Below, one piece after another: positions 2,527 through 19,545 of a stretch of 64,000 nucleotides of DNA; within the stretch, counting starts at the first letter, position 1, and each line of letters starts with the position of its first letter. The stretch spans positions 927,353 to 991,352 of the forward strand of contig NZ_DF967965.1 in NCBI RefSeq assembly GCF_001050195.2. Direction: 5' to 3'. A program made the position numbers and the translations under genes. Source of the DNA: Anaerolinea thermolimosa. Its GTDB lineage: Bacteria > Chloroflexota > Anaerolineae > Anaerolineales > Anaerolineaceae. The notes beneath the pieces are model-generated. The model saw only the letters and a program-made list of their open reading frames with translations, did no database searches and was not told where the DNA came from.

Positions 2527-5145
2527 CTAAAGGGAAAATGCAATTGGAATATTTTGGACCTGAGTTAGGGCGAGCCCAGTCTCTGAATTGATTAAGTCAA
2601 GATCAACGGTGACTGTTCCCGCAGGAATATCATCTATAAAAAGAGTCACCGTATTAGGAATCAATGTTGTTGATCCTTCCTCAATCTTCATCTTTACGTC
2701 TTTTGTGGTTTCATCAAGGCCATATGTGGCTGCTACAGGCATTGATAGAACATGGTTCCCGGATTTTAATTCCACACGGATTTTAGGCGGTGTTGCGAGA
2801 AGCTCAGTTGCGTTTCCATTAATAGTAACAGAGAAAAACCTTGTAGATATCTGTTTGCTACCAAGGATTACCTCCCAATGAAAAGCAGGTTCCTTGTTGG
2901 ATGATAAGTAGTTTTTCCCCGGTCGAACCGATAGGATGGGAATAATTATTTCTTGAAGAGACATGCCACCATGAAAATATTGAGTTGATCCACCTGGTGC
3001 CTTAAAGCACCCCAGTCCTATTGGTGTTACAAGTTCTAAATCACCACCAATGCCAAATGCAGAAACTGGTTTGCGTAAGCACGTTGAGACATTAGCTCCT
3101 CCATGACCAATCCAAACACGGCGATGCAAGTCAACAGTATCGCCGCCGGGGGGATCCATCGGAGTGCCTACCATAAGGTTGTCTCCAGCTATGAAGCCAT
3201 GATCAGATGTGATAATAACCGTTTGATAATTGACATTCAGTAAATTGCGGATACACCGGCGTAATTGGTTGAAAACATCGTCATGGATACGCCTAGCAAT
3301 TTCTGGCTGACTTTCCCACAATCCGTCGATTTCGTCTGTCGCAGTAATGACGGCCAGCTTTGCATTGGCAAGGGCGTTTACAATCTTCTTATCCTTTAGC
3401 GGTGCAATTTGGTTAAGTTCCAATACAATGCTTTGTGGGTGGTTGGTTTCTATATATTTCACGCGGTCTGGTCGACCCTTGAGCATTGTTTTTAAAATCT
3501 CAACACCCAATTTCCCTGCTCCGACAGGTGAAAATGATATTCCCTTTTCTGCATCCGGCATAAGTGCTGCCATTCCCACTTCTGTGATAGTGGGTACTGT
3601 AGCTAAGGCGGGTAATACCTGACAATCCCAATCTGTTTGGATTTGTTCGAATAAATCTAAAGCCATCTCATATCGAAATGAGTCAACCAGAATATATGCG
3701 ATTTTTCCACTTTCCAATGACGGTTGAACAAAATCATGGAATATATTGGCTTGTTGCACAATTTCTGGAAGGTGGAAGCTTGCTTTTTCATAACCTTCTA
3801 TAAACCGTTCGGTCATTCTGTGAATCACATCAATATAACTTGATCGAGCTGATGCCAGGAGTTTTTGAAGTGAATCATGATGCTCAGTCTCGAAATCAAA
3901 ACTGTGCTCATCTCTTTCCATTCTTCTAAATGTTGTATCTAATTTGCACCAAGGAGATTGTCCATCACTGGCATGAATTTGATATCCAGTATAATTTTTG
4001 ACCAATTGGGATGCTGACCATTCTTGTTTCAGGGCAGTCTTAATGGCGTTGGATTGAACGAGGACTTGTCCAGCTTCTACGATCATTTGCCAATGTAATT
4101 TCAAGGTCGGGATTTGGTTCGGCCAGAATCCGTTCTGCCGCTTTCTAGCAATTTCAACCAAATCTTGAACCGGTTTTTCTATAAGTGCTTTTTCGACCAA
4201 AGACTGTAGAATGTCTTCAATTCCAGCAAAAGTATCTGCATGATCCAACATTTCGATCGTCCAGACGTGTTTTGATAAGTCAATCTCCGGTTCAAATTTA
4301 TTGGCTGCTTCTATGTAACTGGCGGTGGTATCACTCCTGAGGCGCCATTGTCTTACAAGGCGAAGCACGGTTTCATAGGCTCCTTTACTCTTCGGGCCTT
4401 TGAATGTACTGAGTGAGGCAGGTAATGATTTACCCAAATGACTCGCAAACTCTGCGAATAATAAATATCTGGCTAAGGATTCGCGGACTTTACCCAATTC
4501 ATCTTTTTCACTAAGTTGGATTTCCAATTCGTTTTTTAGTAAAGCGATTAGTGTTGTAATCGCATTTTTCGTTCTTATGTCTTCATCAAAATTCTTAGAG
4601 GCAAGGAATTGAAGGCAAATATCTTCTATGTTTTCACTTTTAAATATTAGAGCTAAAGCTCCAATGTGGATTTCCTTATGCCGGCTTGCTATCTCATCCA
4701 ATTCTGAGAGGGATAACTGACCGTTTTCCACCTCACTAATAACTTTTGACAGGTTATTGGCAGGCAAAATTCCATTCAACGCTTGACGTGCAACGATAGC
4801 CAAGCGAGAATTTCGCTCAACAGGCTGTTCCCCTGGTTGAACAGTTACGCCGGCTGTTGTATATTCAACCAGTGCGTGATTGGAAAAATCTTCGGATGTG
4901 GGTACATAGATTAAAAGTTGGGGCGGTTCAAAAGTACCCCAAACCTGCTCTAATTCTCGCCGCAGCGCCATGAAACCTTTTTGGGGTTCGTATGAAAATA
5001 ACTGCACGTTAGGAAAATTCTCTGCACGAACGAGGGCTTGATACTGCTTCTCGGGATCAAACCAAACAACAATATGGTGCTCTTGGATTTGTTGGCGAAG
5101 TGTTTGGATCAAATATTGGCTGACAAGATTTGCAGTATTACTCAT
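2527..5145 (-). CDS. pglZ: BREX alkaline-phosphatase-superfamily protein PglZ
   Basis: This 872-residue protein belongs to the PglZ family, a BREX signature. The alkaline-phosphatase-type metal-binding motifs are visible: YILVDSFRYEM near residue 485, then ITSDHGFIAGD near 648 and WIGHGGA near 680. The N-terminal half is helical and resembles BREX-1 PglZ proteins; the last 130 residues look beta-rich. PglZ is essential for BREX methylation and exclusion, but its substrate is not settled. It lies between the pglX specificity gene (24 bp upstream) and brxL (12 bp downstream), in the usual pglX-pglZ-brxL order. Confidence 0.94.
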   Translation of the reverse strand: MSNTANLVSQYLIQTLRQQIQEHHIVVWFDPEKQYQALVRAENFPNVQLFSYEPQKGFMALRRELEQVWGTFEPPQLLIYVPTSEDFSNHALVEYTTAGVTVQPGEQPVERNSRLAIVARQALNGILPANNLSKVISEVENGQLSLSELDEIASRHKEIHIGALALIFKSENIEDICLQFLASKNFDEDIRTKNAITTLIALLKNELEIQLSEKDELGKVRESLARYLLFAEFASHLGKSLPASLSTFKGPKSKGAYETVLRLVRQWRLRSDTTASYIEAANKFEPEIDLSKHVWTIEMLDHADTFAGIEDILQSLVEKALIEKPVQDLVEIARKRQNGFWPNQIPTLKLHWQMIVEAGQVLVQSNAIKTALKQEWSASQLVKNYTGYQIHASDGQSPWCKLDTTFRRMERDEHSFDFETEHHDSLQKLLASARSSYIDVIHRMTERFIEGYEKASFHLPEIVQQANIFHDFVQPSLESGKIAYILVDSFRYEMALDLFEQIQTDWDCQVLPALATVPTITEVGMAALMPDAEKGISFSPVGAGKLGVEILKTMLKGRPDRVKYIETNHPQSIVLELNQIAPLKDKKIVNALANAKLAVITATDEIDGLWESQPEIARRIHDDVFNQLRRCIRNLLNVNYQTVIITSDHGFIAGDNLMVGTPMDPPGGDTVDLHRRVWIGHGGANVSTCLRKPVSAFGIGGDLELVTPIGLGCFKAPGGSTQYFHGGMSLQEIIIPILSVRPGKNYLSSNKEPAFHWEVILGSKQISTRFFSVTINGNATELLATPPKIRVELKSGNHVLSMPVAATYGLDETTKDVKMKIEEGSTTLIPNTVTLFIDDIPAGTVTVDLDLINSETGLALTQVQNIPIAFSL

Positions 5146-5169
5146 GCTCTCCTCTTCCTACTACTCGTT

Positions 5170-7107
5170 CTAGTTTCCGATAAACCATTCTTCATGCCCA
5201 TGCGCAATGGCATAGGACTTGTTCTTCTTGCAGGCCTGCTTCACCCGCTCCGGCCAGTAATGCATGGCAATGTGGCTCCAATCGTACTTCCCGGCGGCCA
5301 GCTCCTCCCAATACTTCTTCGGTTCGCTCTTCCATAACGGGATCACGCTCCATAACGGCGCCATGCGCAGGATCACCCCGTCGTCAATCCAGTCTGGCTC
5401 CGGTTCATACCCGCCGCGGGTGATGGCCTCCAGGTCTTTGGCAAACTGCGCCAACTCCTCCGCCAGCTGACGCAGCTCATCCATCTCTTTCTCGATGGGC
5501 TTGCGGGCGGCTCCCTGAGCGGTCTGCGCCTTTTTGCCAAGCTCTTCCAGGCGCAACTGCACGGCGCGCCGTTTGGTGGGCAGGTAGGGTTCCTGCTGCA
5601 GGGCGTAGAAGGTGTTGCGGTCGATCTTCTCGTGGAACAGCACGAAGCCGTAGGAGCGTTTGGACGACTGAATGGGCCAGTAGACCGGGCGTTTGCGGTA
5701 TTGTTTGATATGGTGCTGGGTGAAGAAATCTTTCTCCAGGAACCTGCGCAGGTCGCCACCAGCCGCCTGCTGGATCACTTCCTGAGCCTGCGCCTGGCCG
5801 AGCATCAATTCCAACGCCTTGCTGACCAGGGTAGGCAGATCGCGGGGGTGGTTGGGGTCAAAGACGGCGATGCCGTCGGGCAGAGCCAGATTCTGAAGAG
5901 CCAGTTCCACTTCGCGGGAGAAGACGTGCCGCCCGCCATGCTCGTCGATGGTTGCGAACTGGGAGGGATCGCCGACCAATTCGTCGAATTCTTCTTCGCT
6001 GGGTTCGGGCAGCGAGCCGATGGCAAAATCCGATCGGCGGTAAACGGCAGAGCCTAGTGCGCCTGGGGTACCAGGCTGGAAACGACCGAGGAGAATGCCG
6101 ATGGCGTAGGAGAGCCAGTCGCTCGCTATATCCTCTTGATTGATAATAATAGGTTGTGCTGTTTCTTCTTCATCTTCACCCATTAAGCCATCATTTTCTG
6201 TTGCTTTTACCAACCCTCCTCCAGCAAGATCAGTCTCGATGAAAGCTTGATCCTCCTGGTCAATTTCAAATAATTGGTAGACCTCTTGGTTGATTTGTTT
6301 TTCTAACTCCATTAATTTTTGTCGAATAATGGTTACTTCGCTCGATCCATTGTGCCATGAAAGAGGAATATCGAAATCAATAGAGACCTCCTTTTTGGTT
6401 TCGAACCACCTAGCAAGCCAAATACTAAAATTGGAAGGTTTTGACAAACAATCTGGTGAAGATCCTTCGAGATTCGGCCACGGCAATAAACTGAGTTGCC
6501 CGATCTCAAAACCCATCGTTGGGCTAATCAAAGACAACAGTCCTGAAATCGCTACCGAGTTTAGGATTGCTAGCGCTTTACTGATTGAGGTACCACCCGG
6601 AAAGTAAATACCAGGTCCTTTGTGGGTTATTATCCAACCTGGCGGAATAATTCGAAATCCTGCACCTTTTGAACTTATAAGACTCCATGAAATTCCTTCA
6701 CGAAAATAATATACCGTGTTCCTAATCACTGAAGCAGTAAAATTCTTTAATTCATACCCGTTATTTAACCAATTTATGACATACTCTTGATTTCCATACC
6801 ACTTTCTATAACTACCACCCTTTGTGCATGGAAACCATTTATATGATAATTGCTTAGCATCGTTTTCATTTCTACATGAAAAAACAATCTTATTGAATCC
6901 AATTTCCCACCAATATCTTAAGAAACGCATATTATCAGCTGTTGCCAACCCTTGTTTAGGTTCAGCTACTTCTGATAGTGATTGGTAACTTGAAAATATC
7001 TGCTGAACCTTTTTGCTGACCCAATACACCCAAGGGCTCCCAGGAATCGCTCCAAAATCAGCCTGGCGCAAGCGGTATACCTGGTTTGGCAACTTCGTCT
7101 CGCTCAT
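5170..7107 (-). CDS. pglX: PglX specificity (target-recognition) subunit, copy 1
   Basis: This 645-residue protein corresponds to the C-terminal half of an ordinary BREX PglX. It opens with the linker motif IPGSPWVYWVS that in full-length PglX follows the methyltransferase domain, then a target-recognition-like region (PKQGLATADNMRFLRYWWE; KGGSYRKWYGNQ) up to about residue 230 and a helical spacer. No methyltransferase motifs are present, so it probably works in trans with the 15873-17918 subunit, much as HsdS works with HsdM. Residues 330-645 are almost identical (about 20 differences in 316) to the protein at 12618-14555, while residues 1-329 differ strongly. The gene is AT-rich in the variable half and GC-rich in the shared half, so it is a mosaic. 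Confidence 0.85.
   Translation of the reverse strand: MSETKLPNQVYRLRQADFGAIPGSPWVYWVSKKVQQIFSSYQSLSEVAEPKQGLATADNMRFLRYWWEIGFNKIVFSCRNENDAKQLSYKWFPCTKGGSYRKWYGNQEYVINWLNNGYELKNFTASVIRNTVYYFREGISWSLISSKGAGFRIIPPGWIITHKGPGIYFPGGTSISKALAILNSVAISGLLSLISPTMGFEIGQLSLLPWPNLEGSSPDCLSKPSNFSIWLARWFETKKEVSIDFDIPLSWHNGSSEVTIIRQKLMELEKQINQEVYQLFEIDQEDQAFIETDLAGGGLVKATENDGLMGEDEEETAQPIIINQEDIASDWLSYAIGILLGRFQPGTPGALGSAVYRRSDFAIGSLPEPSEEEFDELVGDPSQFATIDEHGGRHVFSREVELALQNLALPDGIAVFDPNHPRDLPTLVSKALELMLGQAQAQEVIQQAAGGDLRRFLEKDFFTQHHIKQYRKRPVYWPIQSSKRSYGFVLFHEKIDRNTFYALQQEPYLPTKRRAVQLRLEELGKKAQTAQGAARKPIEKEMDELRQLAEELAQFAKDLEAITRGGYEPEPDWIDDGVILRMAPLWSVIPLWKSEPKKYWEELAAGKYDWSHIAMHYWPERVKQACKKNKSYAIAHGHEEWFIGN
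5185..6120 (-). repeat. Long direct repeat, copy A (3' half of pglX specificity gene 1)
   Basis: About 935 bp are nearly identical to 12633-13567 in the same orientation. The match begins just inside the stop codons and ends sharply at the codons for DWLSYAI (residue 330 of both proteins). Such repeats are substrates for homologous recombination: a simple crossover would delete about 7.4 kb including brxC, while gene conversion would only swap sequence. Confidence 0.93.
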
Positions 7108-7125
7108 GAAACCTCTCCCCCTAAC

Positions 7126-7935
7126 TTAGCGGGCATTGATCACCGCCTGCAGTTCTTTCATTCTTTTGTCCACAATTTCATCCAGCGCCAGACAGATATT
7201 CTCTATTGTATCCACGGATTGTTTCGCCCAGGCAAAGGTGATCTCCTGTTGATTGCCTTGAGGATTGGCTTGATCGTGATCCGCCCGGTGAACGATATCA
7301 TTTCTACGCTTGACCGTCTCATTCACGATGGTCATCAATTCTTTCTTGTCGCGGTTCAGTTGTTTTGAGATCATCTCCCAAGGTTTTTCGATCCCCAAAA
7401 ACCGAGCAGTAACGTGAATCCCTTTATGCGTGCTAAGATACGAAAAATTCGTTAAATTCAAAATTTTATTTGCGATGTATTCTGCTGCATTTGGATCTTC
7501 GCTTAGACGTAATACTTCATCCAAAGAAAAAGTTAAATTGGATAGATACTCTTTCACCGTTTCATCTTCACTCGAGACAAAACCACGACCCTGTGCTTTG
7601 ATGACAATTGGCAGGTTTGCTCGCAACAGAGCCGGAAGATAGGTATCCAATCCTGTACATGCGGCGACAACAGCCTGTCTTAATAGGTGAGCCAGGGTTC
7701 CCCGCCTCAATGAGGCGCGCGGAATTTCTGCTCCTTGGCGAACAAGGCCCAGAAAGATTTCGTTGTACACGAGCAAGAGTTCTTCATCTGTATTGGCTTG
7801 TACTACCCCGCGCAGGATTTCGACCAGATCGCCTTCAGAGACAATGTTGTCATTTGTATCCAGCAAGGAATATACCTGCAGCAATAATTTTGCCGGACGG
7901 ATATTCTCTTTAAAGGTCTGAATAGGACTGGGCAT
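7126..7935 (-). CDS. HEPN-domain protein in the BREX operon
   Basis: This 269-residue protein has an all-helical look and a C-terminal RRNDIVHRADH stretch near residue 213. R-N-D-I-V-H fits the Rx4-6H motif of HEPN ribonuclease or RNA-binding domains. HEPN proteins are common in defence and toxin-antitoxin systems, where they cut RNA or act as scaffolds. The gene sits 5 bp downstream of brxC and 18 bp upstream of pglX specificity copy 1, so it is co-expressed with BREX. It is not one of the six core BREX-1 proteins. Catalysis is inferred only from the motif. Confidence 0.65.
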   Translation of the reverse strand: MPSPIQTFKENIRPAKLLLQVYSLLDTNDNIVSEGDLVEILRGVVQANTDEELLLVYNEIFLGLVRQGAEIPRASLRRGTLAHLLRQAVVAACTGLDTYLPALLRANLPIVIKAQGRGFVSSEDETVKEYLSNLTFSLDEVLRLSEDPNAAEYIANKILNLTNFSYLSTHKGIHVTARFLGIEKPWEMISKQLNRDKKELMTIVNETVKRRNDIVHRADHDQANPQGNQQEITFAWAKQSVDTIENICLALDEIVDKRMKELQAVINAR

Positions 7936-7940
7936 GCTGA

Positions 7941-10900
7941 TTACTCCAGGATGACCTTCACACCGGCATCAATCCGTTCCATCAGGGCTTCGCGCAGCTG
8001 CTCGAGCGCTTCTTCCACTTCTTCACGTGTATTCAGCGCTTGAAACGTGTTCAGGATGGCGGATAGCTTCACCCGCTCCACTTTTTCTTCCGGTTTGAGG
8101 ATTTCCTGAATTTTTCGCATCACTGCGTTTTTTAGCCCGTTTGCCGCGGCAATATCCGATTCCATCTGCGGGATGGTGGCGTGACACTGCTCGCATACCA
8201 ATTTACCGGCTGGCAGTGCAAACGAACCATCCTCTATGCCGCCATCACAGTACCGGCTTGTTAACGGAGCAAGGATCGCCGCTTGATGATCAGGCTGCAA
8301 GGCAACCCAATCAGAAGAACCTTTCACCTGGTCAATTGCTTCACGAAAGACTTGCGCTCGTTCCTGGTGGATGGTTGAATACGTTTGGGCGTAATGGTTT
8401 TCAATGGTTTGGATCGCCTGATCCACCTCGACCGTCCTTTGATAGTACGACCCATCGGTCAAACGAGCATCCAGCAAATCCTTCGCTTCAGCTACTCCTG
8501 CATCCACACCCCGTTCTATCAGGAGCCCAGCCATTTGCGTGGCAGCCATTCTGGCTCGCTGCAAGCGTTTTATGCCAGCCGGTTCGGTTGCTCCGCGAAT
8601 ACCCTGGACATGTGAGCGCAGTTTCTTGAATGATTCGCCTTCACCTTCCAGCATGTTCACCAAATCATCGGATGCTCCCTGCAGAATCGCCTTCAAAGTA
8701 CTCTGATATTCTTCCAAAATGTCGAGAACGGGAATGGCATTGGCTCTGGCAACGGCATCCACTGGCAAAAGGGCGTTCAGTTCTGCCTGAGCTAATTTCT
8801 GGAAAGCCTGAGCAATAGCCGCTTCATCCACGTCCACTTCTTCCCCAGTGATCTCCTCATAGCGTTTGGCGGCATTCACCAGGGTTTTGAGGTCAGGAGC
8901 TTTACGAGGAGCGAAGGATGCTGATCGGAAGGTATTTGTGGATGCGAACACGGATCTCACCTGGGGATCCAGGTGATTGCGGAATCGGCGGCCCTGATAC
9001 GTTACTTCGATCACGCCAGCGCGTAACAATGCCGCCAGTACGATCCATAAAACTTCACGCGACCAACCGTATCCCAATCCACCAAAATGATCCTCCAGGA
9101 TACGCCCGGTCACTTTGTTGCCGTAGCTGTGTTCCTGCTGCAAATACCCCATCACTTCAAGGGCAATCTCTGCTTGAGTATGGATGACGGTCTTGCCGCC
9201 CTCGGTGATCACTAGCTTCAGTCCGTCCTGACCAGAATAAAAGACCTTTGATAAACCATTCAGGTTGACCGCCTTGAGGATTTCATCGGCTTCCGTTCCC
9301 TTTACCGGAACGCTGCCCATCTTTAATTTATCGTATAGTTTCGGAACGGCATAATCCAGCATACTTTTCAGAATTTCAGGCAGGCTGGTGCCCATATCTG
9401 GTCCATTCTTGGAAACCCCATTAAAAAACCCGGTTCCTTGCTGGAGCGCTTCAAGCAGCAGGCGCTTCAACCGTTCCTCATGCCGGCCGGCCTCTAACTT
9501 TTCGCTGGCCAGGCTGCTGGAATCATCGGCGTTCAGCTTCCCTTGTGCTCGAAGCTGGTCATATTTTGCCACCATCTGGCGTGACCGTGAAAGCTCCACA
9601 ACCCGATCGTCAATCTCATCGGATAAAGCAGCGACCCAAAACACCTGGCGGGGTTTCTCGCGGCTTTCATTTCGAACGAGTTCCAAATTCGCCGAAAGGC
9701 TTTTGGGTTCATCTATAAGTCTAAGCTCTATCGGGATCTCGCCCTGAGCAATACTGCGCCCTTCCCAGCCAATATCGAGCTTGAAAGTACGTTTCTCCAT
9801 CGTATAACGGCTGAGGCTTGGCTCGCTAAAGCTCGCCCTCAGCATATCTTCGATGATATCGCGACGCTCCTTCGGGGTAGGGCTGATGCTGTTGCGTTCC
9901 ACCGTCCAGTTCTTTTCTTGATCCGTCAGCAGCTTCCAGCCGTCCTCGGTCTGGCGAATGAACTGCTTCTCATGCAGCAGCCCAATCGCCCGTTCAACCT
10001 CGGGCAAGCAGCTTCCGGCATCCACCGCATTGAAGAGTAAAGCCGCAAGGTTTTTCTCTGTACGCGGCACAGTGCGGACAAACTCCAATAAAGCAATTGC
10101 CTTAGCCACTTTGAGGGGCCAGACATCATTGGGCCACATGACTGCAATATCACGGATATCATCCTTGCGCTGCGTCGGCAAGTTTTCGCCGATCAAGTCA
10201 AAAATCCGGTCAATGGATACCAGGCTGCCGACGGGCGCATCCGCCAAAGCCGTGCGTTCGCTGACCAGCATTTCATAGACCTGTTTGATGATTGTGCGAT
10301 TACTGCCGCCAATGTGTCGCGGCGCCCCGGCCTGCAATCGCATGCCGGATACGATATCAATGGATAGCTCGATGAAGTGGGGCAGGTAGGGGTAGAACTG
10401 GATAAAATCCTGTTCACTGAAATCAAAACTGATCTGCGAACGCTCCAGGGATGTGTGTGCTTTGATTTGGCTATGATAATCCTGATACATTTTGCGAAGT
10501 ATAGGTTCGGCTTCTGCCTTTTTGCTCAATACACGCCTGGTAGCTACTTCACGGATGTCAGACGGAGCCATATCCACGCGATAGCGAAACCGATCCTGTA
10601 GTTTCGCAAGCTGCACCCGTTTGTCATCAATGGCAGCGACAACCTCATCTAATTTCTCTTGTGAGGTGACAATGATCCAAACCGGTGCAACAGCCTTATT
10701 AGCCAGAACACGATTCTTACCTTCTTTACCATATTGCTCAACCACAGCGCGTAAGTTCTCAATTTTTTCACCGCTGCGCGCCACGTACTGCCCTACCTCA
10801 TCGATGACGAATACGATGGCTTTACCAGGACTGCGGCGGGCAGAAAGCTCAAACGTCCGATCCACCAGGGTATTAATCGTGATGTCCGCATTTGGATTAA

Positions 10901-11684
10901 AAGACATCGCCCAGGAATCGGGAGCGGGATAGGTCTTTGGATCCAATTGATTCATCACAGCACTGGTGCGCAGCACTTTTTGAGCGCCTTTACGAACCAT
11001 TTGCCAGACTGCATAATCCGCGGCATTGACGCCCGCCAATGTTACTGGAATGGTGGTTCCACCCGCGTCGCTTACATTGACTTGATCGCGGTAAAGCTCA
11101 GCGCATATTTTGACGAATTTGCCTAACCGTTTTTCTGCTTCCAACTCAATTTCCAGGTTAGCGATGTCGAAATCCTGGGCATAATCCAGCTCACGCAATA
11201 AAACGGTATACATGATCTCGGCAATCGTTTCGGTCGAGCGCCGGACTGCGCGATCCACCTGGACATCAAACAAGATCGTTTGAGTAGGTATCCTTACGGT
11301 GATGTAGTTGATGAGGTCGCGCAGTTTCTTTGTAGAATCTTCACCGGGAGCCTGCTGCTCCAATTGCTGCAGGAAGATCTGGCTGGCCGGCGTTCCGTTC
11401 AATGAGCGATTTGAGAGGATATAACCCAGGTTTTTCGCAAATGAGCTTTTACCAGAGCCAAAGAAACCCGAGACCCATACCCCAATCGCTTCACTTGGAT
11501 CGCCCGGACCCTCTGAAATTGGTTTCAAAACCTCGATGTATTGTTCACGGATGCGTTTGGTGGTGATATATTCAGTCAGCTCCGTATACACCGTCTGTTC
11601 ATCGCGCTGGTCTAGCTTGATGACTTCTTCGATGGGGCGGGAAAGATCACGAGAGAGAAGATTTCGAATGGTCTGCATGCTCAT
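7941..11684 (-). CDS. brxC: BREX ATPase BrxC
   Basis: This 1,247-residue protein matches BrxC/PglY, the large P-loop ATPase (DUF6079-type) of BREX. Walker A is GFFGSGKSS at about 73-81, in the family context VWVSGFFGSGKSSFAKNLGY. A Walker-B-like strand, IVFVIDEVGQYVARSG, lies near residue 295. The remainder is long and helical. Just before the C-terminus two closely spaced cysteines (VCEQCHATIP) may bind metal. BrxC is needed for both methylation and restriction in studied systems. The start overlaps the stop of the upstream nuclease-like gene (ATGA-type), so translation is coupled. Confidence 0.93.
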   Translation of the reverse strand: MSMQTIRNLLSRDLSRPIEEVIKLDQRDEQTVYTELTEYITTKRIREQYIEVLKPISEGPGDPSEAIGVWVSGFFGSGKSSFAKNLGYILSNRSLNGTPASQIFLQQLEQQAPGEDSTKKLRDLINYITVRIPTQTILFDVQVDRAVRRSTETIAEIMYTVLLRELDYAQDFDIANLEIELEAEKRLGKFVKICAELYRDQVNVSDAGGTTIPVTLAGVNAADYAVWQMVRKGAQKVLRTSAVMNQLDPKTYPAPDSWAMSFNPNADITINTLVDRTFELSARRSPGKAIVFVIDEVGQYVARSGEKIENLRAVVEQYGKEGKNRVLANKAVAPVWIIVTSQEKLDEVVAAIDDKRVQLAKLQDRFRYRVDMAPSDIREVATRRVLSKKAEAEPILRKMYQDYHSQIKAHTSLERSQISFDFSEQDFIQFYPYLPHFIELSIDIVSGMRLQAGAPRHIGGSNRTIIKQVYEMLVSERTALADAPVGSLVSIDRIFDLIGENLPTQRKDDIRDIAVMWPNDVWPLKVAKAIALLEFVRTVPRTEKNLAALLFNAVDAGSCLPEVERAIGLLHEKQFIRQTEDGWKLLTDQEKNWTVERNSISPTPKERRDIIEDMLRASFSEPSLSRYTMEKRTFKLDIGWEGRSIAQGEIPIELRLIDEPKSLSANLELVRNESREKPRQVFWVAALSDEIDDRVVELSRSRQMVAKYDQLRAQGKLNADDSSSLASEKLEAGRHEERLKRLLLEALQQGTGFFNGVSKNGPDMGTSLPEILKSMLDYAVPKLYDKLKMGSVPVKGTEADEILKAVNLNGLSKVFYSGQDGLKLVITEGGKTVIHTQAEIALEVMGYLQQEHSYGNKVTGRILEDHFGGLGYGWSREVLWIVLAALLRAGVIEVTYQGRRFRNHLDPQVRSVFASTNTFRSASFAPRKAPDLKTLVNAAKRYEEITGEEVDVDEAAIAQAFQKLAQAELNALLPVDAVARANAIPVLDILEEYQSTLKAILQGASDDLVNMLEGEGESFKKLRSHVQGIRGATEPAGIKRLQRARMAATQMAGLLIERGVDAGVAEAKDLLDARLTDGSYYQRTVEVDQAIQTIENHYAQTYSTIHQERAQVFREAIDQVKGSSDWVALQPDHQAAILAPLTSRYCDGGIEDGSFALPAGKLVCEQCHATIPQMESDIAAANGLKNAVMRKIQEILKPEEKVERVKLSAILNTFQALNTREEVEEALEQLREALMERIDAGVKVILE

Positions 11685-12616
11685 TACTCCTGGATTCCGG
11701 ATACATTTTGATAAGCGGCTTTCAGCATTTCACCCAATTCCGTTATATCTATCGCGCTTCCGGGAATGGGACGAAATATCGAATTCTTAAAAGTAGCGTC
11801 GTACTTATGATATTTCCAAACTTGCCCATGGAAAGTCTCTGATATTTCAGGCGGGATCTTCATGTGAATAGACCAAGTTTTGGTGCTTTCCCATGAGACA
11901 TCGAAAACCACCTTATTTCCGAGTTTAAAGCCGGTGTAAAATTTATTGAGGTTAAAAGGAAGATCCCAACCTTGCTCCTTAACAAATTCCGCTAACTGGG
12001 TGACCACCTTCTGGAACTCTTGGGTGGGTTCCTTACCATGTTCAGATTCGTAGTAATCCCAGGTCCAGTCACCCATCACTTTTGTCGTCGTCGGCTTCGC
12101 TGGGGGCATATCCGCAAGAGTTTCTACCATAACGAATTCGTCATCGTCCTGGCAAAAACGCCTGATCTGAACCAGGTCAAGAGGATAGTTAATTTTGCTG
12201 GATAATTTCAGTACGCTAGATTTGAAGGATGGCGCAATCACAACAATCCGAACTTCTAACGCATCCCACTCAATCTTGATATCCTCGGGGCGACTTTTAG
12301 CCTCCAACCAAATTGCTTTGATCGAATCAGGATTCGTCTCAGCCCACATGGCATAAGTGAGAACTTGCGGAAGGATTTCTTCACCCACCTCTACGTTCTT
12401 CATTTCTATGATGCAGATACGGGAGTCTTGATCTACACCCAACATATCCGGAATGCCCTGTTTATTCCCTGTTTGGATCTGGCGATAAAGTATAAAAATA
12501 TCTGGGAGTAAATCTTGGTTTCGAAAAATATAAGATTCAAACTCTTTTTCGTTCTGAAACGGCTTCAGCAGTAGATTACGGGTTTGGTCTTTCGACTTCC
12601 AATACAGATTCAACAT
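11684..12616 (-). CDS. PD-(D/E)XK nuclease-like protein in the BREX operon
   Basis: The start at 12616 is chosen because a GGGAGGA ribosome site lies just upstream; longer frames overlap the previous gene and only copy it out of frame. The 310-residue product has a PD-(D/E)XK-like core: GIPDMLG near residue 54, then IIEMKN near 71, followed by a helix (LPQVLTYAMWAET). This order (D, ExK, Q-containing helix) resembles NucS/DUF91-type and other restriction-like nucleases. The last 110 residues hold a separate alpha/beta domain rich in aromatic residues. It sits between pglX specificity copy 2 and brxC. BREX is not thought to cut phage DNA, so a nuclease inside its operon is notable. Activity is inferred. 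Confidence 0.65.
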   Translation of the reverse strand: MLNLYWKSKDQTRNLLLKPFQNEKEFESYIFRNQDLLPDIFILYRQIQTGNKQGIPDMLGVDQDSRICIIEMKNVEVGEEILPQVLTYAMWAETNPDSIKAIWLEAKSRPEDIKIEWDALEVRIVVIAPSFKSSVLKLSSKINYPLDLVQIRRFCQDDDEFVMVETLADMPPAKPTTTKVMGDWTWDYYESEHGKEPTQEFQKVVTQLAEFVKEQGWDLPFNLNKFYTGFKLGNKVVFDVSWESTKTWSIHMKIPPEISETFHGQVWKYHKYDATFKNSIFRPIPGSAIDITELGEMLKAAYQNVSGIQE

Positions 12617-12617
12617 T

Positions 12618-14555
12618 TCATCCTCCCTCATACCATTCTTCATGCCCATGCGCAATGGCATAGGACTTGTTCTTCTTGCAGGCCTGCTTCACCCGCTCCG
12701 GCCAGTAATGCATGGCGATGTGGCTCCAATCATATTTCCCGGCGGCCAGCTCCTCCCAATACTTCTTCGGTTCGCTCTTCCATAACGGGATCACGCTCCA
12801 TAACGGCGCCATGCGCAGGATCACCCCGTCGTCGATCCAGTCTGGCTCCGGTTCATACCCACCGCGGGTGATGGCCTCCAGGTCTTTGGCAAACTGCGCC
12901 AGTTCCTCAGCCAGTTGACGCAGCTCATCCATCTCTTTCTCGATGGGCTTGCGGGCGGCTCCCTGCACAGTCAGCACCTTTTTGCCAAGTTCTTCCAGGC
13001 GCAGCTGCACGGCGCGCCGTTTGGTGGGCAGGTAGGGTTCCTGCTGCAGGGCGTAGAAGGTGTTACGGTCAATCTTCTCGTGGAACAGCACGAAGCCGTA
13101 GGAGCGTTTGGCAGATTGGATCGGCCAGTACACCGGACGTTTGCGGTACTGCTTGATGTGGTGCTGGGTGAAGAAATCTTTCTCCAGGTATTTACGCAGG
13201 TCGCCCCCGGCAGCCTGCTGGATGACTTCCTGGGCTTGCGCCTGGCCGAGCATCAATTCCAACGCTTTGCTGACCAGGGTAGGCAGGTCACGGGGGTGGT
13301 TGGGGTCGAAGACGGTGATGCCATCCGGCACGGCGAGGGCTTGCAGGGCGGCTTCCACCTCGCGGGAGAAGATGTGCCGCCCGCCTTGCTCGTCGATGGT
13401 TGCGAACTGGGAAGGCTCACCCACCAGTTCGTTGAATTCTTCTTCGCTGGGTTCGGGCAGCGAGCCGATGGCAAAATCGGTACGGCGGTAGATGGCAGAG
13501 CCTAGTGCACCCGAGGTGCCAGGCTGGAAACGACCTAAAATGATGCCGATGGCGTAGGAGAGCCAATCCAAAGCCCTGCCCCCATTGTCTTCGCCCTCAG
13601 TAAGATCTCCCTCCTCCTCCTCCGCTTTAACGCTTTCGCCTTCCTCAGGCATATTGTGTATAACGGCAAGTTCGCTTTCAATCGCCTGGCGGTCTTCCGC
13701 GCCAAGATCGTACAGTTCATAGACCAGATGATTGATCTTTTCCTCGAGTTCCGCCAGACGCTGGGAGGAAAGCCTGCACAGATCATTTCCGTATTGCCAC
13801 GAAAACGGTGCGATAAAGTCAAAGGTTGTTTCACTGTGCATGGATTCCGCTTGTTGCAGGTGGATGCACTGTGGAACCAGTTGGTCAAAGCTACTTCTGC
13901 TGGTTGCATCCGGCACATGGAAAGGTACCCGCGCTATGTCGCCAATTTGGAAATTTATTGTTGGATTGAGAAGCCTCAAGGCATAATTCATCCAAGGTGA
14001 ATTCATCACCGCCATGACCGAAAATAACAGTTCTTTATCTGGAAATCCGCAGGATCCACCCACATCAAATATAAACCCGGGTGGCAGGTAGCGCACTCCA
14101 AACCTTGTGGTACTAACCAGTGACCAGGTGATGCCTTCGCGGAAATAATAATTTACATTCTGCGGTCTTGAGGCTAATCTGCCATTGGGGGCATAAAAAT
14201 TTTTAATTTCCTTACCGTCATTTTTCCAATTAACAACAAACCATTGATTTCCGAACCATTTATTGAGACCACCACCCTTCATGTAAGGGATAAATGAGTT
14301 AATTTGGGATAATTTCTCGGGTTTTTCATCGATTTGGTTTTCTAAAGGCATTTCCCAAAAATATCTCAGGAATCGAAAATTTTCACCTGTGGCTAAACCC
14401 TGTCTTGGCTTAACATAAAATTCCAAAGATACGGACTTTAAAAAAACACCTCTAATCTCACGACTTACCCAATACACCCACGGGCTACCAGGAATCGCTC
14501 GAAACTCACTCTGGCGAAGTGTAAACACATTGGGAGATAAATTCGAATTGCTCAT
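12618..14555 (-). CDS. pglX: PglX specificity (target-recognition) subunit, copy 2
   Basis: This is a second 645-residue C-terminal PglX half. It starts with the same kind of linker (LRQSEFRAIPGSPWVYWVSREI), then a recognition-like region (PRQGLATGENFRFLRYFWE; KGGGLNKWFGNQ) that differs from copy 1, a helical spacer (AELEEKINHLVYELYDL) and a C-terminal half from residue 330 about 94% identical to copy 1. No methyltransferase motifs are seen. The start overlaps the upstream gene's stop (ATGA). By analogy with HsdM/HsdS it would give the PglX methyltransferase a different target sequence from copy 1. The matching GC-rich 3' halves of the two genes are 7.45 kb apart in direct orientation. Confidence 0.85.
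   Translation of the reverse strand: MSNSNLSPNVFTLRQSEFRAIPGSPWVYWVSREIRGVFLKSVSLEFYVKPRQGLATGENFRFLRYFWEMPLENQIDEKPEKLSQINSFIPYMKGGGLNKWFGNQWFVVNWKNDGKEIKNFYAPNGRLASRPQNVNYYFREGITWSLVSTTRFGVRYLPPGFIFDVGGSCGFPDKELLFSVMAVMNSPWMNYALRLLNPTINFQIGDIARVPFHVPDATSRSSFDQLVPQCIHLQQAESMHSETTFDFIAPFSWQYGNDLCRLSSQRLAELEEKINHLVYELYDLGAEDRQAIESELAVIHNMPEEGESVKAEEEEGDLTEGEDNGGRALDWLSYAIGIILGRFQPGTSGALGSAIYRRTDFAIGSLPEPSEEEFNELVGEPSQFATIDEQGGRHIFSREVEAALQALAVPDGITVFDPNHPRDLPTLVSKALELMLGQAQAQEVIQQAAGGDLRKYLEKDFFTQHHIKQYRKRPVYWPIQSAKRSYGFVLFHEKIDRNTFYALQQEPYLPTKRRAVQLRLEELGKKVLTVQGAARKPIEKEMDELRQLAEELAQFAKDLEAITRGGYEPEPDWIDDGVILRMAPLWSVIPLWKSEPKKYWEELAAGKYDWSHIAMHYWPERVKQACKKNKSYAIAHGHEEWYEGG
12633..13567 (-). 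repeat. Long direct repeat, copy B (3' half of pglX specificity gene 2)
   Basis: Partner of the repeat at 5185-6120. Most differences lie at the end nearest the variable half (for example GTPGALGSAVYRRS against GTSGALGSAIYRRT); the last third is almost unchanged at nucleotide level, which points to recent duplication or ongoing gene conversion. Confidence 0.93.
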
Positions 14556-15202
14556 GAAACTATCCCTCTCTGCTGCGCAATACTTCTGCGTGCCTGGCTT
14601 AGGTTAGGCCCATTTCCTGCCTTTTCCCAAACAGCCTGTTCGTAAGACTCGCTCAGCGTTGTTATCACTCCGGATTCAAGATTGTCTGCCAGGTATTGGA
14701 TGCCGTCCATCATGTTCGCATAAGTCTCTGACGTAAGGCTGTCAATCGCAGCTTGCGCCAGAAGTTCGGCTTTCTCTTCTTGTGTGCGTCCCGCTTCAAG
14801 AATCTCGGTAAAGTTGGGTTTGAGCGCGGTGTAATAAATCACTGAAAGTCCAAATTGATTCTGCATGCTTTCAATCACCAGAACGTCTCGTTTCTGACGC
14901 TGCGCCTGATCATCATAAATAACTGTCAGGTTACCTTCTCGATGGATTTCACGGCGATAAAGAAAGTTCTGCGCCTTCTTCTTTCGGGTGTATTCCTTCA
15001 AGACATAGACGACTGCTTTCACTGGAACACCGCGACCCTTTGGCACAGGTGCCAGGGTTGGCGCGCCAGCCCGGCTCCGGCTGCGCCGGGCATATTCCAC
15101 CGGGAAAGAAGTCAACACATCCGGAATCACATGATCCACAACAGTTTCAATCTCGTGTCCTGGGTAGGTGATGAGGGAGCCGTAGGCGAGAATGCCGATC
15201 AT
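14552..15202 (-). CDS. Gamma-glutamylcyclotransferase-like (GGCT-fold) protein
   Basis: This 216-residue protein starts MIGILAYGSLITYPGHEIE. The near-N-terminal AYGSL is the hallmark loop of the gamma-glutamylcyclotransferase/AIG2-like fold, which binds substrate in cyclotransferases. Further on, FPVEYARRSRSRAGAPTLAPVP fits the next strands of that fold. The actual substrate is unknown; related domains occur beside defence genes. It overlaps both neighbours by 4 nt (ATGA junctions with the HEPN gene upstream and pglX specificity copy 2 downstream), so the three are tightly coupled. Its BREX role is undetermined. Confidence 0.6.
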   Translation of the reverse strand: MIGILAYGSLITYPGHEIETVVDHVIPDVLTSFPVEYARRSRSRAGAPTLAPVPKGRGVPVKAVVYVLKEYTRKKKAQNFLYRREIHREGNLTVIYDDQAQRQKRDVLVIESMQNQFGLSVIYYTALKPNFTEILEAGRTQEEKAELLAQAAIDSLTSETYANMMDGIQYLADNLESGVITTLSESYEQAVWEKAGNGPNLSQARRSIAQQRGIVS

Positions 15203-15858
15203 TGCTCAAATTCCGGTAAGCCGCAGATGTAGTTCATTTTATTTCTAAAATTGGGCCTCAATTCTTCACGGCTGTCATTTGCACGAAGATGACTGCAATA
15301 CGTATTAAGTTCGTCCGCAAGGACTTTCACAAATTGCTTACGGTAGACGGTCAAAGCGCCGCCTGTTTGTCTGAAGAGATTTTCTCCATCTCTTAGCTTG
15401 ATTTTTGATTTTCCGCCCGTTTCACACGCATGTAATAAACCGCAGCGAATATCTTGATAAAAGATTCGTGCTTGTTGGTCATTGAAGTACCGACTCAGGA
15501 CAAATGATTTTGAAGTCAGGAATTGTGAAAAAAAGTCTGAATTGTTCATGGGGTGGCCGCATGGAAACCTGGCGTCGTTACTATTTTCCAGCCCATCATA
15601 GAATTGGGCTAATGTCTCAATCAACATACAGGATAGGGCCATCACAGAAAAGCCAGAAAATTTCCCATTCGAATCGATCTCTCTACTGACATTCATATAC
15701 CTGAAATTTATCCGATCTTCGAAGATACAGACTGCTTTATCCCAATCTTCTTGGGTCGCAAATGCGATATTCTGCCAATTTTGAACGGCCCATTTTCCCC
15801 CGTCACTTGAAGGAGCAGTGATCAAATTTGGATTTAAAGATCGTCTTTCTCTGGGCAT
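15199..15858 (-). CDS. HEPN-like protein with RCGLLH motif
   Basis: The ATG at 15858 is preferred over an upstream TTG because a GAGG site lies 6 nt before it, giving 219 residues. The key segment is FYQDIRCGLLHACET near residue 140: R-C-G-L-L-H fits the Rx4-6H signature of HEPN domains. It is preceded by a helix (SVMALSCMLIETLAQFYDGL) typical of the first HEPN helices. The gene lies between the PglX methyltransferase gene and the GGCT-like gene, overlapping the latter. Together with the gene at 7126-7935 it gives this BREX operon two HEPN-type members. RNase activity is an inference. Confidence 0.6.
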   Translation of the reverse strand: MPRERRSLNPNLITAPSSDGGKWAVQNWQNIAFATQEDWDKAVCIFEDRINFRYMNVSREIDSNGKFSGFSVMALSCMLIETLAQFYDGLENSNDARFPCGHPMNNSDFFSQFLTSKSFVLSRYFNDQQARIFYQDIRCGLLHACETGGKSKIKLRDGENLFRQTGGALTVYRKQFVKVLADELNTYCSHLRANDSREELRPNFRNKMNYICGLPEFEQ

Positions 15859-15872
15859 TCTGTCCTCAAATC

Positions 15873-17918
15873 TCAATGGCTGCTCAGAACTTGTTTGAGT
15901 TCTGACAATGCTTTTTCAAAAGCAACGCGCTTCGACTCTGCGTCTGGCTCATGCACCAGGCGGAAGTAAATCCCTTCCGATTCTTCTCGTTTACGTGTGT
16001 CCGGCTCGCGGCGCAAAACAAAAGCTGCTGTTTGTAATGTTCCCGGGTTTCCCGTAGCAAAGAGTCCTGGTCCGAAATGTGCCAATGTCTTAATTGCAGC
16101 CCGACTGGTGATATATTCCCGCAACGATTCGTAAGAAGAGATAAACATAAAGGAATGCATCGTCAACATGCCAACCCAACCATCATCTTTTACCAACTCC
16201 AAAGCGCGCATAATGAAAGCGGCATAAAGATCGCCTTTGCCTTCTGGATACTGGTCATCTAACAGCTTTGCAAGGGTATCATTCATTTTACGTCTTGAAA
16301 GATATGGGGGATTTGTGACCACAACATCATATTGTCGTAGCATCATGTCTAGGAACCGAAAGCCTTTGCTTACTTCTTGAGTAAAGAATCTCACATTCAC
16401 ACCGTGGTTTGCTGATTCCTTATAAAAAAAATCAAGAGCTTGAATAAGTTGATTTTCAAGATATCCCCAATATTCTGTTTCCGTTGCATCATCATCCATT
16501 TCTGGGAACAAGCTTGGAGCAGGTAAGCCTGGAAGAAGATGGGCTTGACGATATCGGTCATGTTTTTGTCGTTCACTTTCAACCAACTCGTGGATATCTC
16601 GTTCAATTCTGAGGAGAGATCCAAGTTGATTGATATCTTCTAGTTGCTCCTTAATACGGCGAAGCATCTTCTCAAAAATTGGATTGGAGAACTTCATTTC
16701 TATGATGAATCTGCCAAGATCAGCAGAACTAAAAGGTAATACATCAGCACAAGATAAGTTGTGATCTTTAATCTGTGCGTTTTTACTCATCCGTTTTGCC
16801 CGTAGATACAAAGCCAATGCTGAAAGCTGCACAGCCCGAAGATCAATATCAATTCCATAAATATTATTCTTTATAATCGCTTCTGGAATTTCATCTTCAG
16901 TGGATACTGAAGGTTGTTTTGGCCAACCCGGTTTTCCAATGTTGGCTAATTCTTCCTTGTACATTGCAGCAAATATGTCAAAGGCTACTAAACCGAAATG
17001 CATACTACCGCACGCTGGGTCAAGCAGTGTAATTTCTTTGGCTAATCGTAGGGGTTGAGTGTCAGATTCACCCGGCAAATTGATAAAATATTCCAATTTT
17101 GTTGACAATTGCGAATCGGGATGGATCTGTATCCACAATTGTCCTAGTGTATTTTCAACGAGATAGTGGACCACCCAATCCAAAGTAAAAAGTTGGGTTG
17201 CAGCTGGTATATCGCCGGCTTCGAATTTTTGGCCGGATAGCCGTACGGCAGCAAATGCAGCCTGCAGTTCAGGTTCATTGAAGTATTGATATATCCAGCC
17301 AATTGTTTCCTCGACTTGCCACGCTGGAGCTAAAATCTCATCATTCAACATGGAAAGAAAATTCGTCAAGGATGTTGGCCGAGGAAATAATTGAGAAGGT
17401 AAGGTTTCAACATCAAATAAAACAGCTATTTCACCCGCTACCTGACTAGATTGCCACGTAAGAAAATGTCGGTAAGCCGTATCTACTTTTCCTTGGTCAT
17501 ATAAAGTTTTTTCTTCAGGGTGATCTGCTAAATAAAATTTAAACCCATTTGATTGGTGTCCCCGACGCACCGTCTCGCGAATCAGCTTTCGCTCTTCCAT
17601 CATCTTGAAGGCCACTAATCGATTCAGGTGGGTAAAAGCGATTTCTTTCACCAATTTATCCACTGCTTCTTTGCGCTTCAAGCCTGCACTTACTTCATCA
17701 TCCAGAAAGCGTATTAATTGGCCATAGATCTCACGGGTTTCAGGATCTTTGAGAGTTGGGAGGTTTTCCGGTTTTTCCAGGCTTCCATCAGAATGCAGCC
17801 CATAAACCCCTTCCAGCAAGTCGCGCGCTTCTCGGGTCAGAAGCTCGCGGCCTTTTAGGGCAAAATCATGAATAGCATTACGAGTGGACTCAGGTAAGTA
17901 TTGTTCTGTGAAAGCCAT
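15873..17918 (-). CDS. pglX: PglX methyltransferase subunit (N-terminal half of BREX PglX)
   Basis: The ATG at 17918 is chosen because AGGAGAGG precedes it at good spacing; an upstream TTG at 17933 is less likely. The product (681 residues) has the N-terminal and methyltransferase domains of BREX PglX: SAM motif I DPACGSMHFG and the N6-adenine catalytic motif NPPYLSRRKM, about residues 300 and 536 from this start. It ends after GIYFRLVHEPDAESKR, just where full-length PglX continues through a linker into IPGSP..YWVS and the recognition domain. That continuation is supplied by separate genes at 5170-7107 and 12618-14555. It would methylate host DNA for self-recognition, with specificity from a partner subunit. 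Confidence 0.9.
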   Translation of the reverse strand: MAFTEQYLPESTRNAIHDFALKGRELLTREARDLLEGVYGLHSDGSLEKPENLPTLKDPETREIYGQLIRFLDDEVSAGLKRKEAVDKLVKEIAFTHLNRLVAFKMMEERKLIRETVRRGHQSNGFKFYLADHPEEKTLYDQGKVDTAYRHFLTWQSSQVAGEIAVLFDVETLPSQLFPRPTSLTNFLSMLNDEILAPAWQVEETIGWIYQYFNEPELQAAFAAVRLSGQKFEAGDIPAATQLFTLDWVVHYLVENTLGQLWIQIHPDSQLSTKLEYFINLPGESDTQPLRLAKEITLLDPACGSMHFGLVAFDIFAAMYKEELANIGKPGWPKQPSVSTEDEIPEAIIKNNIYGIDIDLRAVQLSALALYLRAKRMSKNAQIKDHNLSCADVLPFSSADLGRFIIEMKFSNPIFEKMLRRIKEQLEDINQLGSLLRIERDIHELVESERQKHDRYRQAHLLPGLPAPSLFPEMDDDATETEYWGYLENQLIQALDFFYKESANHGVNVRFFTQEVSKGFRFLDMMLRQYDVVVTNPPYLSRRKMNDTLAKLLDDQYPEGKGDLYAAFIMRALELVKDDGWVGMLTMHSFMFISSYESLREYITSRAAIKTLAHFGPGLFATGNPGTLQTAAFVLRREPDTRKREESEGIYFRLVHEPDAESKRVAFEKALSELKQVLSSH

Positions 17919-17933
17919 CATTCCTCTCCTCAA

Positions 17934-18521
17934 CTAGGCGACATAGATCTTGGTGTGATAGCTGCCGCGCGGTTCCAGATCGGCTAATCCCATGAAGCGC
18001 AAACCCTCACTCTCCCCAGATGTAGCCGGCATGAATAAGACACAGGACACTGAAGTCCGGCCTTTCATCTTGTCCAGAAGCGTAGAGACACGATACATTT
18101 CCGGAGCAAGGGCTCCAGCGCGCCATAGAAACACCAGGTCTTTTTTGGGATCCAAATGGTTAAGACGTTCAGCTAATAAATCAGGCAAAGGGCGCCAATC
18201 AGGATCAGAAAGATACTCGTAAACTTGCGATTGCGCGGTTGGGAAACCACTGCTTCTTTCAAGAGCAGTTATGGCATCCATTCCCTCGGTCTCATCTATT
18301 GATTGCCAAACCAGCTCTGCTAATGAGATCAAAGTTACTTGCCAGTTTTTGTCTTTCTCTAGACGGGTTTTGAGAAGCTGCATTTCATGTCTCATTTCCC
18401 ATTCCTGTTGGGGAGGATAGCAAAAGACAGCAAATGGCAAGTCATTGTAAATATAATGACGCGGTGGGCGAGAGCGTAAGTCGATTTCCAGGTTACGAAC
18501 GAGATCTTTCAATGATGGCAT
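17934..18521 (-). CDS. brxB: BREX protein BrxB (DUF1788)
   Basis: This 195-residue protein matches the BrxB/DUF1788 family in size and place. It begins MPSLKDLVRNLEIDL, and near the end carries LVFLWRAGALAPEMYRVSTLLDKM and the family-typical LRFMGLADLEPRGSYHTKIY. BrxB is a core BREX-1 protein of unknown biochemical role. Its start overlaps the brxA end by 29 nt, and pglX begins 15 nt after its stop. Confidence 0.88.
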   Translation of the reverse strand: MPSLKDLVRNLEIDLRSRPPRHYIYNDLPFAVFCYPPQQEWEMRHEMQLLKTRLEKDKNWQVTLISLAELVWQSIDETEGMDAITALERSSGFPTAQSQVYEYLSDPDWRPLPDLLAERLNHLDPKKDLVFLWRAGALAPEMYRVSTLLDKMKGRTSVSCVLFMPATSGESEGLRFMGLADLEPRGSYHTKIYVA

Positions 18522-19281
18522 TGGTCAACTCCATAAAATCCTGAAATGGAAATTCCAACCGGATTACTGCTCCAGCAGCAAAATACTCGCATAATCTTTG
18601 TTGGTGAGCCTCAATCAGGTGTTCTTCTACCTCATTCGGTTTTAAATTAAATAATCCCCAATCTGGTGAATGTAAAACACGATCTCCAGATCCGTTCCTT
18701 TTCAATAGATCAAAAGCAATGAAAGCAAAGGGCTCAATAGGGAGCATCACAGGGATCAGATATTTTTGGGTAGCCCCTTCGAGGATTCCAAAATCACGTA
18801 GGCTGGCCAATGCATGTTGAGCGACATGCAAGAGAGTGTCTTCTCCCCATGCAGTGGTTGTTTTGCCCTCTGAAGACCAATCTCTTAGCTTTCTAATAAC
18901 ATGATCCAGGTGTATATCTGAGAAGCCGGCTTGCCGGCGGGGATTGACAACCTGAAGAACAATATCTTTTAATGTCTCGTCGTTTTGCGCAGAATAATAA
19001 TAAAAAAGGGAGTCAATCCATTTGGTCGGAACCTTGGCCTGAACCAACGTCACCAATGCATTTCCAATTTGCGGATCTTCGAAATACCGCTGTTTAAAAA
19101 TACGAAGGATATCTTCTACGCGAGAGCGTGAAGCTTTTCCAAAGATATTATTTTGACGAGCATTGTTTAAATTTGTATTTACGTCTACTGATAGATCCCA
19201 AGATGCCATTAAAGCTTTGGTATCTGGTAAAAGAGCTGTTGCTTTAATTAAGCGACTAGAATAAGTCATATGTTCATTCAC
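18493..19281 (-). CDS. brxA: BREX protein BrxA (DUF1819)
   Basis: This 262-residue protein matches BrxA (DUF1819, NusB-like helical fold, reported to bind DNA). Recognisable segments are YSSRLIKATALLPDTKALM, KQRYFEDPQI and the C-terminal HQQRLCEYFAAGAVIRLEF. The start is a GTG at 19281 that overlaps the regulator stop (GTGA); an ATG four codons later is an alternative. It is the first BREX structural gene. Confidence 0.87.
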   Translation of the reverse strand: MNEHMTYSSRLIKATALLPDTKALMASWDLSVDVNTNLNNARQNNIFGKASRSRVEDILRIFKQRYFEDPQIGNALVTLVQAKVPTKWIDSLFYYYSAQNDETLKDIVLQVVNPRRQAGFSDIHLDHVIRKLRDWSSEGKTTTAWGEDTLLHVAQHALASLRDFGILEGATQKYLIPVMLPIEPFAFIAFDLLKRNGSGDRVLHSPDWGLFNLKPNEVEEHLIEAHQQRLCEYFAAGAVIRLEFPFQDFMELTNAIIERSRS

Positions 19282-19511: not shown

Positions 19512-19545
19512 TTCCGCCTCAGCCAATGAGTTGGGGGTCGTTATC

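Follow-up and report, generated by a model that had tools for sequence, protein, structure and literature searches.

Type I restriction systems carry their methyltransferase (M) and specificity (S) subunits as separate proteins. Bacteriophage exclusion (BREX) systems are thought to keep target recognition within one large enzyme, PglX (also BrxX), and a new target thus means a changed enzyme. Here we describe a BREX operon of Anaerolinea thermolimosa in which PglX is encoded by one M gene and two separate S genes, S1 and S2. The operon lies in a stretch of 64,000 nucleotides (contig NZ_DF967965.1, positions 927,353 to 991,352), referred to as the window.

The C-terminal domain of PglX has been described as resembling Type I specificity subunits (PMC11341690). 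In Ca. Regnicoccus frigidus, two pglX pieces that together make up the full gene were described as a truncation (PMC9716671). Duplications of pglX and phase variation have been reported in BREX (PMC11842806), and the accessible text of a further report handles BrxX as one chain and does not contain the word "split" (PMC12839542). Our literature search, with most subscription papers outside its coverage, returned no paper on separate BREX M and S subunits. Thus, pglX pieces and multiple specificities are known separately, and a separate S served by a shared M was not found in the literature searched.

PglX is divided between one M gene and two S genes

We read the cut site, the completeness of the halves, the copy numbers, the shared and differing regions, the constraint on the C-terminal halves (C-halves) and the recurrence of the split from the sequences. 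M comprises the N-terminal helical domain and the Eco57I-type N6-adenine methyltransferase domain of PglX and ends in the interdomain linker, in agreement with the original prediction of a 681-residue protein that stops after the methyltransferase domain. It matches the PDB structures 8c45 and 9ewz, and both of its motifs, PACGSM (S-adenosylmethionine [SAM] binding) and VTNPPY, are intact. The methionine in place of the last glycine of PACGSM is no sign of decay, since two solo M genes of relatives also vary there (PACGTM in G144 and PACGAM in G169). The whole-chain PglX model NF033452 has a cut-off of 500 bits, which M, S1 and S2 all fail to reach individually (Table 1), and the operon holds no single-chain PglX of about 1,200 amino acids (aa).

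Aligned end to end with full-length PglX, as the original prediction had proposed, M and S together span the entire single chain, and no conserved residue is removed by the cut. The two S proteins indeed carry the rest of PglX; however, they start about 20 residues earlier than the IPGSPWVYWVS sequence at which they had been said to begin. In 25 junctions of single-chain relatives, the order is a conserved helix (KRxxFExAL), a linker that varies in length and sequence, and the block VYRYRQxDFxAIPGSPWVYW. M stops after the helix and S1 and S2 start a few residues ahead of the block, which places the cut inside the variable linker. The hinge of Salmonella PglX was assigned to residues 654 to 659 (Went et al., PMC11341690), and these align with PGSPWV of S1. 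Two further genes (about 1.3 kb) lie between M and S1, so the separation is not the result of a single frameshift.

S1 and S2 share their C-halves and differ in their recognition halves

The C-halves had been predicted to be nearly identical and the recognition halves different, and both proved correct: identity between S1 and S2 is 93% across the 301 columns of the C-half and 36% across the 214 of the recognition part. By blocks of 25 residues, aa identity is 12 to 63% up to residue 335 and 80 to 100% from 336 to 635. The last 300 nucleotides (nt) form a 97% direct repeat with copies 7,448 nt apart. Synonymous (dS) and nonsynonymous (dN) divergence are 0.474 and 0.070 for residues 331 to 430, and 0.284 and 0.025 for residues 431 to 645; third codon positions hold 61 of the 89 C-half differences. 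The recognition part of S1 is 54% identical to that of a single-chain PglX (L047) and 36% identical to that of S2. Each gene has a purine-rich ribosome-binding site (AGAGAGGG for S1 and GGGGGAGAGG for S2).

The recognition domain, spacer and C-terminal region of PglX/BrxX are present in both proteins by sequence and, for S1, also in an AlphaFold2 (AF2) model. This model, built from 27 alignment rows, has a mean predicted local distance difference test (pLDDT) score of 74.6, with residues 1 to 95 under 50. It aligned with residues 694 to 1223 of PglX chain 8c45_B over 409 residues (Z 18.0), and PglX entries were the sole Foldseek matches at E<=0.001. None of the 50 entries listed in the structural comparison of S1 was a Type I S subunit, although S1 may still resemble them. 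HsdS carries two recognition domains, whereas S1 and S2 each have one recognition part.

Separate M and S genes recur in relatives

The original prediction had called for a search of other genomes for the same split, and the split was found repeatedly. We can distinguish four PglX lineages with separate M and S genes, at two cut sites and almost exclusively in Chloroflexota; several of our locus (L) and genome (G) labels refer to the same contigs, and counts are not additive. Of 16 M matches at E<=1e-60 in Anaerolineae genomes, 9 fall in frames no longer than 744 aa, as do 3 of the 7 closer kin of M (at least 53% identity, window included). Solo M genes of the length of the window's M are present in G144 and G169.

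Class A comprises the kin of M. In G144, M is followed by a Schlafen-type gene at a contig end, and another contig starts with the end of a Schlafen/HATPase-type gene followed by S; the two contigs probably adjoin. In G169 (locus L076), a palindromic repeat that holds the M stop codon stands between M and S. A desulfobacterial locus (L051, Desulfobacterales) has a solo S, with no M visible on its contig. Class B is a second, distant PglX whose M' is about 30 to 41% identical to M. Its M' and S' are separate at nine loci (L048, L038, L063, L064, L075, L037, L041, L042 and L109), seven of which have a class A PglX or S beside them, as far as seen on one contig or in one genome. Here the second cut site is used: M' ends earlier than in class A, and S' opens with an FxRLL strand (six loci). 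The separate M' and S' of L048 align with two PADLOC-DB profiles of 640 and 682 positions (PDLC02526 and PDLC02532) over nearly the full length or over the first part; hence, such genes are already catalogued there, as PglX. Class C is represented by G106 and G323. In class D, M is followed by a nucleotidyltransferase gene, a HepT-like gene and S (G742), or a broken M is followed by a PIN gene and S (G319).

A tree of 18 M rows separated the classes with 98 to 100% support in the Shimodaira-Hasegawa-like approximate likelihood ratio test (SH-aLRT), except where open. Two split loci grouped with single-chain ones, L076 with L047 (99%) and L139 with L143 (98%), which indicates that splits arose more than once; single-chain L070 was placed inside class B. 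The trees exclude L063 (partial S'), L065, L059 and further frames that are short or broken, and a second set of S trees omitted the class B rows and L064_3.

The place of S2 also has counterparts. A class B PglX follows BrxC and the HEPN269 gene in L048, L063 and L107, with M' also there in L074 and one gene later in L075; a single-chain PglX follows them in L050, L061 and L066. S2 therefore occupies a PglX place.

G493, from another family of the same phylum, combines a 1,448-aa single-chain PglX with a 778-aa solo S, whose translation probably begins at residue 28. The gene order (L120:5553-13698) is PglX, a nucleotidyltransferase gene, small genes, a PIN gene, solo S, PglZ and BrxL. From residue 298, the solo S is 93 to 100% identical to PglX per block of 40 residues, compared with 18 to 44% over residues 27 to 297, and the DNA is identical over the last 280 codons, although long identical repeats can mislead assembly. 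The predicted proteins of G493 thus amount to one methyltransferase domain with two S modules. An HPAVSTPKQS start is common to the solo S of G493, G742 and G319 and is absent from the two single-chain junctions compared. A scan of viral contigs with query A1 gave two loci, both with single-chain PglX.

Copy number, base composition and phylogeny

The genome assembly examined comprises 4.17 Mb in 6 contigs, with a completeness of 99.99 and a contamination of 4.69. Searched with A+B profiles, it gave one full match for M (eight rows) plus a weak hit of 31 bits within a 1,209-aa frame, and two matches for S (27 rows). The G+C content at third codon positions (GC3) is 0.75 and 0.76 in the two C-halves, 0.41 and 0.33 in the recognition parts and 0.37 in M. 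The gap between C-half and M is 0.38 to 0.40 in the window, compared with -0.06 to 0.23 in 20 single-chain relatives. Since this gap lies beyond the single-chain range, the C-halves may derive from a GC-rich donor and now work with an AT-rich M. Low GC3 in recognition parts is also frequent in relatives.

C-half trees grouped S1 and S2 with support of 100/99. In approximately unbiased (AU) tests, the M tree rejected M within the lineage of its S C-halves (p-AU 0.0018), and the C-half data rejected the exclusion of S1 and S2 from that lineage (p-AU 0.0033). M is itself a mosaic with different nearest kin: residues 1 to 425 fit the S C-half lineage (p-AU 0.396), and residues 426 to 681 do not (p-AU 0.0028).

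A probable two-subunit PglX and its alternatives

As far as sequences can tell, the M/S arrangement is real and recurrent, and the split PglX system is most likely functional. We consider it probable that PglX is here a two-subunit enzyme in which M pairs with either S, giving one operon two targets. M would supply the SAM-binding and catalytic domain, and S1 or S2 the target recognition domain, spacer and C-terminal region. M would assemble noncovalently with either S across the position of the single-chain hinge, and each M-S pair would join BrxB, BrxC and PglZ. The operon could then methylate two different asymmetric sites and exclude DNA unmethylated at them. As to origin, M and S would have come apart when the variable linker between the domains of a single-chain ancestor took up an insertion; later there would have been two S, alike in their C-halves but not in their recognition domains. 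We infer the physical pairing, the expression of both S genes, the two motifs and this order of events. The HsdM/HsdS-like arrangement of the original prediction holds in part, in that there are one M, two S, complete halves, shared C-halves and different recognition parts; S1 and S2 may also be exchangeable, as it proposed.

Several observations weigh against the two-subunit model. Exactly one solo M with two solo S was seen at no other examined locus. The C-half dN/dS of about 0.09 to 0.15 marks the differences as mainly silent, but a ratio between paralogues does not tell which of them is under constraint, and gene conversion may have blurred it. The AU test does not reject the recognition parts of S1 and S2 as sisters (p 0.36); we abandoned the tree as an argument for their separate origin and used identities and composition instead. 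Likewise, the discordance between the M and S trees was dropped as proof of re-pairing because the mosaic M explains it equally. Finally, split pglX genes are already in print, as truncations, which counts against bolder claims.

One such claim, which we hold tentatively and short of an even chance, is that modular M/S BREX evolved several times with interchangeable S, and that the intervening nuclease or toxin genes belong to the unit and tie an abortive response to the loss of S-M linkage.

It is unlikely that the split reflects permissive fission only, in which a cassette split PglX, the halves complement each other, S1 works and S2 is redundant or decaying. Linker insertions would explain the split under this scenario, the palindromic repeat of L076 supplies an M stop beside the S start, and M and S1 are still in slot order with S2 elsewhere. 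However, S2 has its full length and a ribosome-binding site of its own, the C-half differences are mainly silent, and a recognition part 36% identical to that of S1 is not a degraded copy of it.

We regard as improbable a phase-variable scheme in which S2 acts as a silent store, its recognition domain being moved into the active gene through recombination. The near-identical C-halves and the reported duplication and phase variation of pglX (PMC11842806) would suit such a store. Nevertheless, S1 and S2 are direct repeats, no inverted repeats of at least 40 nt were present at window positions 1 to 26000, and family scans of the operon proteins gave no recombinase among the operon genes; regulated switching is therefore without support. 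Moreover, one crossover between S1 and S2 would delete BrxC, and homology ahead of the recognition parts is low (56% aa and 67% nt over residues 1 to 25).

We doubt just as strongly that S2 serves a purpose other than methylation, whether by competing with S1 or by recruiting other BREX parts; an inhibitor, or a DNA reader used in restriction only, would be examples. An S without M could bind DNA, and S2 stands between HEPN269 and PglZ, in the place of the second PglX of relatives; yet its recognition and C-terminal parts are intact, it matches PglX throughout, and nothing specific indicates a noncatalytic role. An inactive system with M as a truncated remnant of a single-chain PglX, which the original prediction had named as the refuting case, is very improbable: single-chain PglX in L047, L048 and L074, the broken M-side frame of G319 and the kdpB frameshift, a sign of frame errors or decay nearby, would favor it, yet M keeps its catalytic motifs and whole domain, all operon genes are open, and solo M genes of the same length exist in G144 and G169.

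The operon and the genes between M and S

All genes of the operon are open frames and stand in a row on the minus strand in the order of Table 1 (window 493-19547). The type 1 BREX core set (brxA, brxB, brxC, pglZ and brxL) is contained in one cluster, 493-19281. These core genes passed the Pfam scan. PglZ was recognized by Pfam and PADLOC and lies below the NCBIfam equivalog cut-offs; BrxC and BrxL are above theirs. From BrxB to BrxL, neighboring genes overlap or are separated by gaps of at most about 24 nt by their coordinates, which makes a single transcript likely. Promoter counts (26 versus a shuffled mean of 30.2) and terminator counts (19 versus 20.3) showed no excess.

Table 1. Coordinates of the BREX operon features in the window and of genes between M and S at relatives' loci
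Feature	Position	Strand	Evidence or remark
Helix-turn-helix (HTH) regulator, first operon gene	19278..19547	-	PF13443 58.0 bits
BrxA	18493..19281	-	PF08849 65.8 bits
BrxB	17934..18521	-	PF08747 37.4 bits
M subunit, 681 aa from ATG	15873..17918	-	NF033452 residues 1-648, 460.7 bits; PF07669 96.8 bits
225-aa frame, likely start 15858	15199..15858	-	HEPN-like label, weak; homologue in L147
216-aa protein, gamma-glutamylcyclotransferase (GGCT)-like label	14552..15202	-	YGSL start (presumed motif); homologues exist
S1 specificity subunit, 645 aa	12618..14555	-	NF033452 residues 653-1209, 336.5 bits
Nuclease-type accessory gene	11684..12616	-	PADLOC PDC-S18 509.9 bits; NucS 25.5 bits, under cut-off 216
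BrxC	7941..11684	-	NF033441 662.2 bits, cut-off 400
HEPN269, RiboL-PSP-type HEPN accessory gene	7126..7935	-	PF18735 29.5 bits, cut-off 28.4; same place in relatives
S2 specificity subunit, 645 aa	5170..7107	-	NF033452 residues 653-1209, 343.7 bits; own ribosome-binding site
S2 3' end, direct repeat of S1 12632-12931	5184..5483	-	97% identical
PglZ	2527..5145	-	PF08665 63.1 bits; TIGR02687 140.6 bits, under cut-off 270.35
BrxL with Lon C-terminal domain	493..2514	-	TIGR02653 995.6 bits, cut-off 628.25
MNT/HepT genes between M and S	L139:4755-5520
PIN gene between M and S	L142:1661-2260
Schlafen gene between M and S	L104:3610-4737
OLD-type ATPase/TOPRIM gene between M and S	L042:2189-4543

The original prediction was silent on the two genes between M and S1, on the nuclease-type gene that follows S1 and on the HEPN gene that precedes S2. 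We tentatively take the 225-aa frame to be HEPN-like from an R-x4-H motif and the 216-aa protein to be GGCT-like from its YGSL motif; neither matched a Pfam family above cut-off. A single-sequence AF2 model of the 225-aa protein gave a mean pLDDT of 42.7 and no usable fold. At L147:881-2118, outside BREX, a homologue of the 225-aa gene is followed by a gene that, by the same presumed motif, is GGCT-like, which hints that the pair is a mobile two-gene unit. Scans of viral contigs for the two genes found none.

In the window (with the weak HEPN label), G144 (Schlafen), G742 (MNT and HepT), G319 (PIN) and G032/L042 (OLD/TOPRIM), the space between M and S holds genes of nuclease or toxin type; none was present there in L076, L040 and L064. 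HEPN, PIN, Schlafen and OLD genes are known BREX companions (PMC12839542), so their presence is ordinary; their placement in the PglX linker we had not seen described. A palindromic repeat (CCACAGAG...CTCTGTGG) stands between M and S in two lineages (L076:9460-9528 and L064:9818-9874). The same repeat is present in many of the loci examined, including inside the single-chain pglX of L039 and L062. It was rejected as the splitter in the window, where it has 0 matches.

Two observations concern other genes. A 47% relative of the window's nuclease-type gene stands immediately before BrxC in G679 (L107:1-270), as it does in the window. Outside the operon, kdpB (window 23143-25354) is in two frames covering KdpB model residues 9 to 234 and 229 to 674, a frameshift or an assembly error.

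Implications and comparison with known systems

If the two-subunit model is true, a cell with a separate S gene could take on a second target and keep the first, and BREX would gain the route to diversity of Type I restriction. M and S could be tested apart, which is hard with a single chain, and the hand-over of a recognized site from PglX to BrxB, BrxC and PglZ could be tested with interchangeable parts. Under the modular reading, new phage targets would be gained by adding or replacing an S gene. Annotation pipelines that call half-length pglX genes truncated may discard working systems.

Single-chain type 1 BREX of Salmonella D23580 and E. coli HS has the same core genes, and M and S match its whole PglX (8c45 and 9ewz); where it has one PglX/BrxX chain, the window has a single M and a pair of separate S. 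BREX with duplicated or phase-variable pglX, as far as its accessible description goes, likewise has more than one specificity per cluster; the window duplicates the S part alone. In Ca. Regnicoccus frigidus, pglX is in two pieces, as M and S are here, although the accessible text gives no second S, which the window has, and no recurrence analysis. The half-length PglX profiles of PADLOC-DB are not described as subunits in the entries listed. L. casei BREX is said, in a reference title, to include a second methyltransferase. No HsdR was found among the operon proteins scanned (ten proteins plus BrxA, BrxB and HTH), a scan that did not extend to the rest of the genome. As in Type I HsdM/HsdS systems, the catalytic and specificity subunits are on separate genes and may work alike; unlike those systems, the S of the window has one recognition domain, PglX-type sequences and BREX partner proteins.

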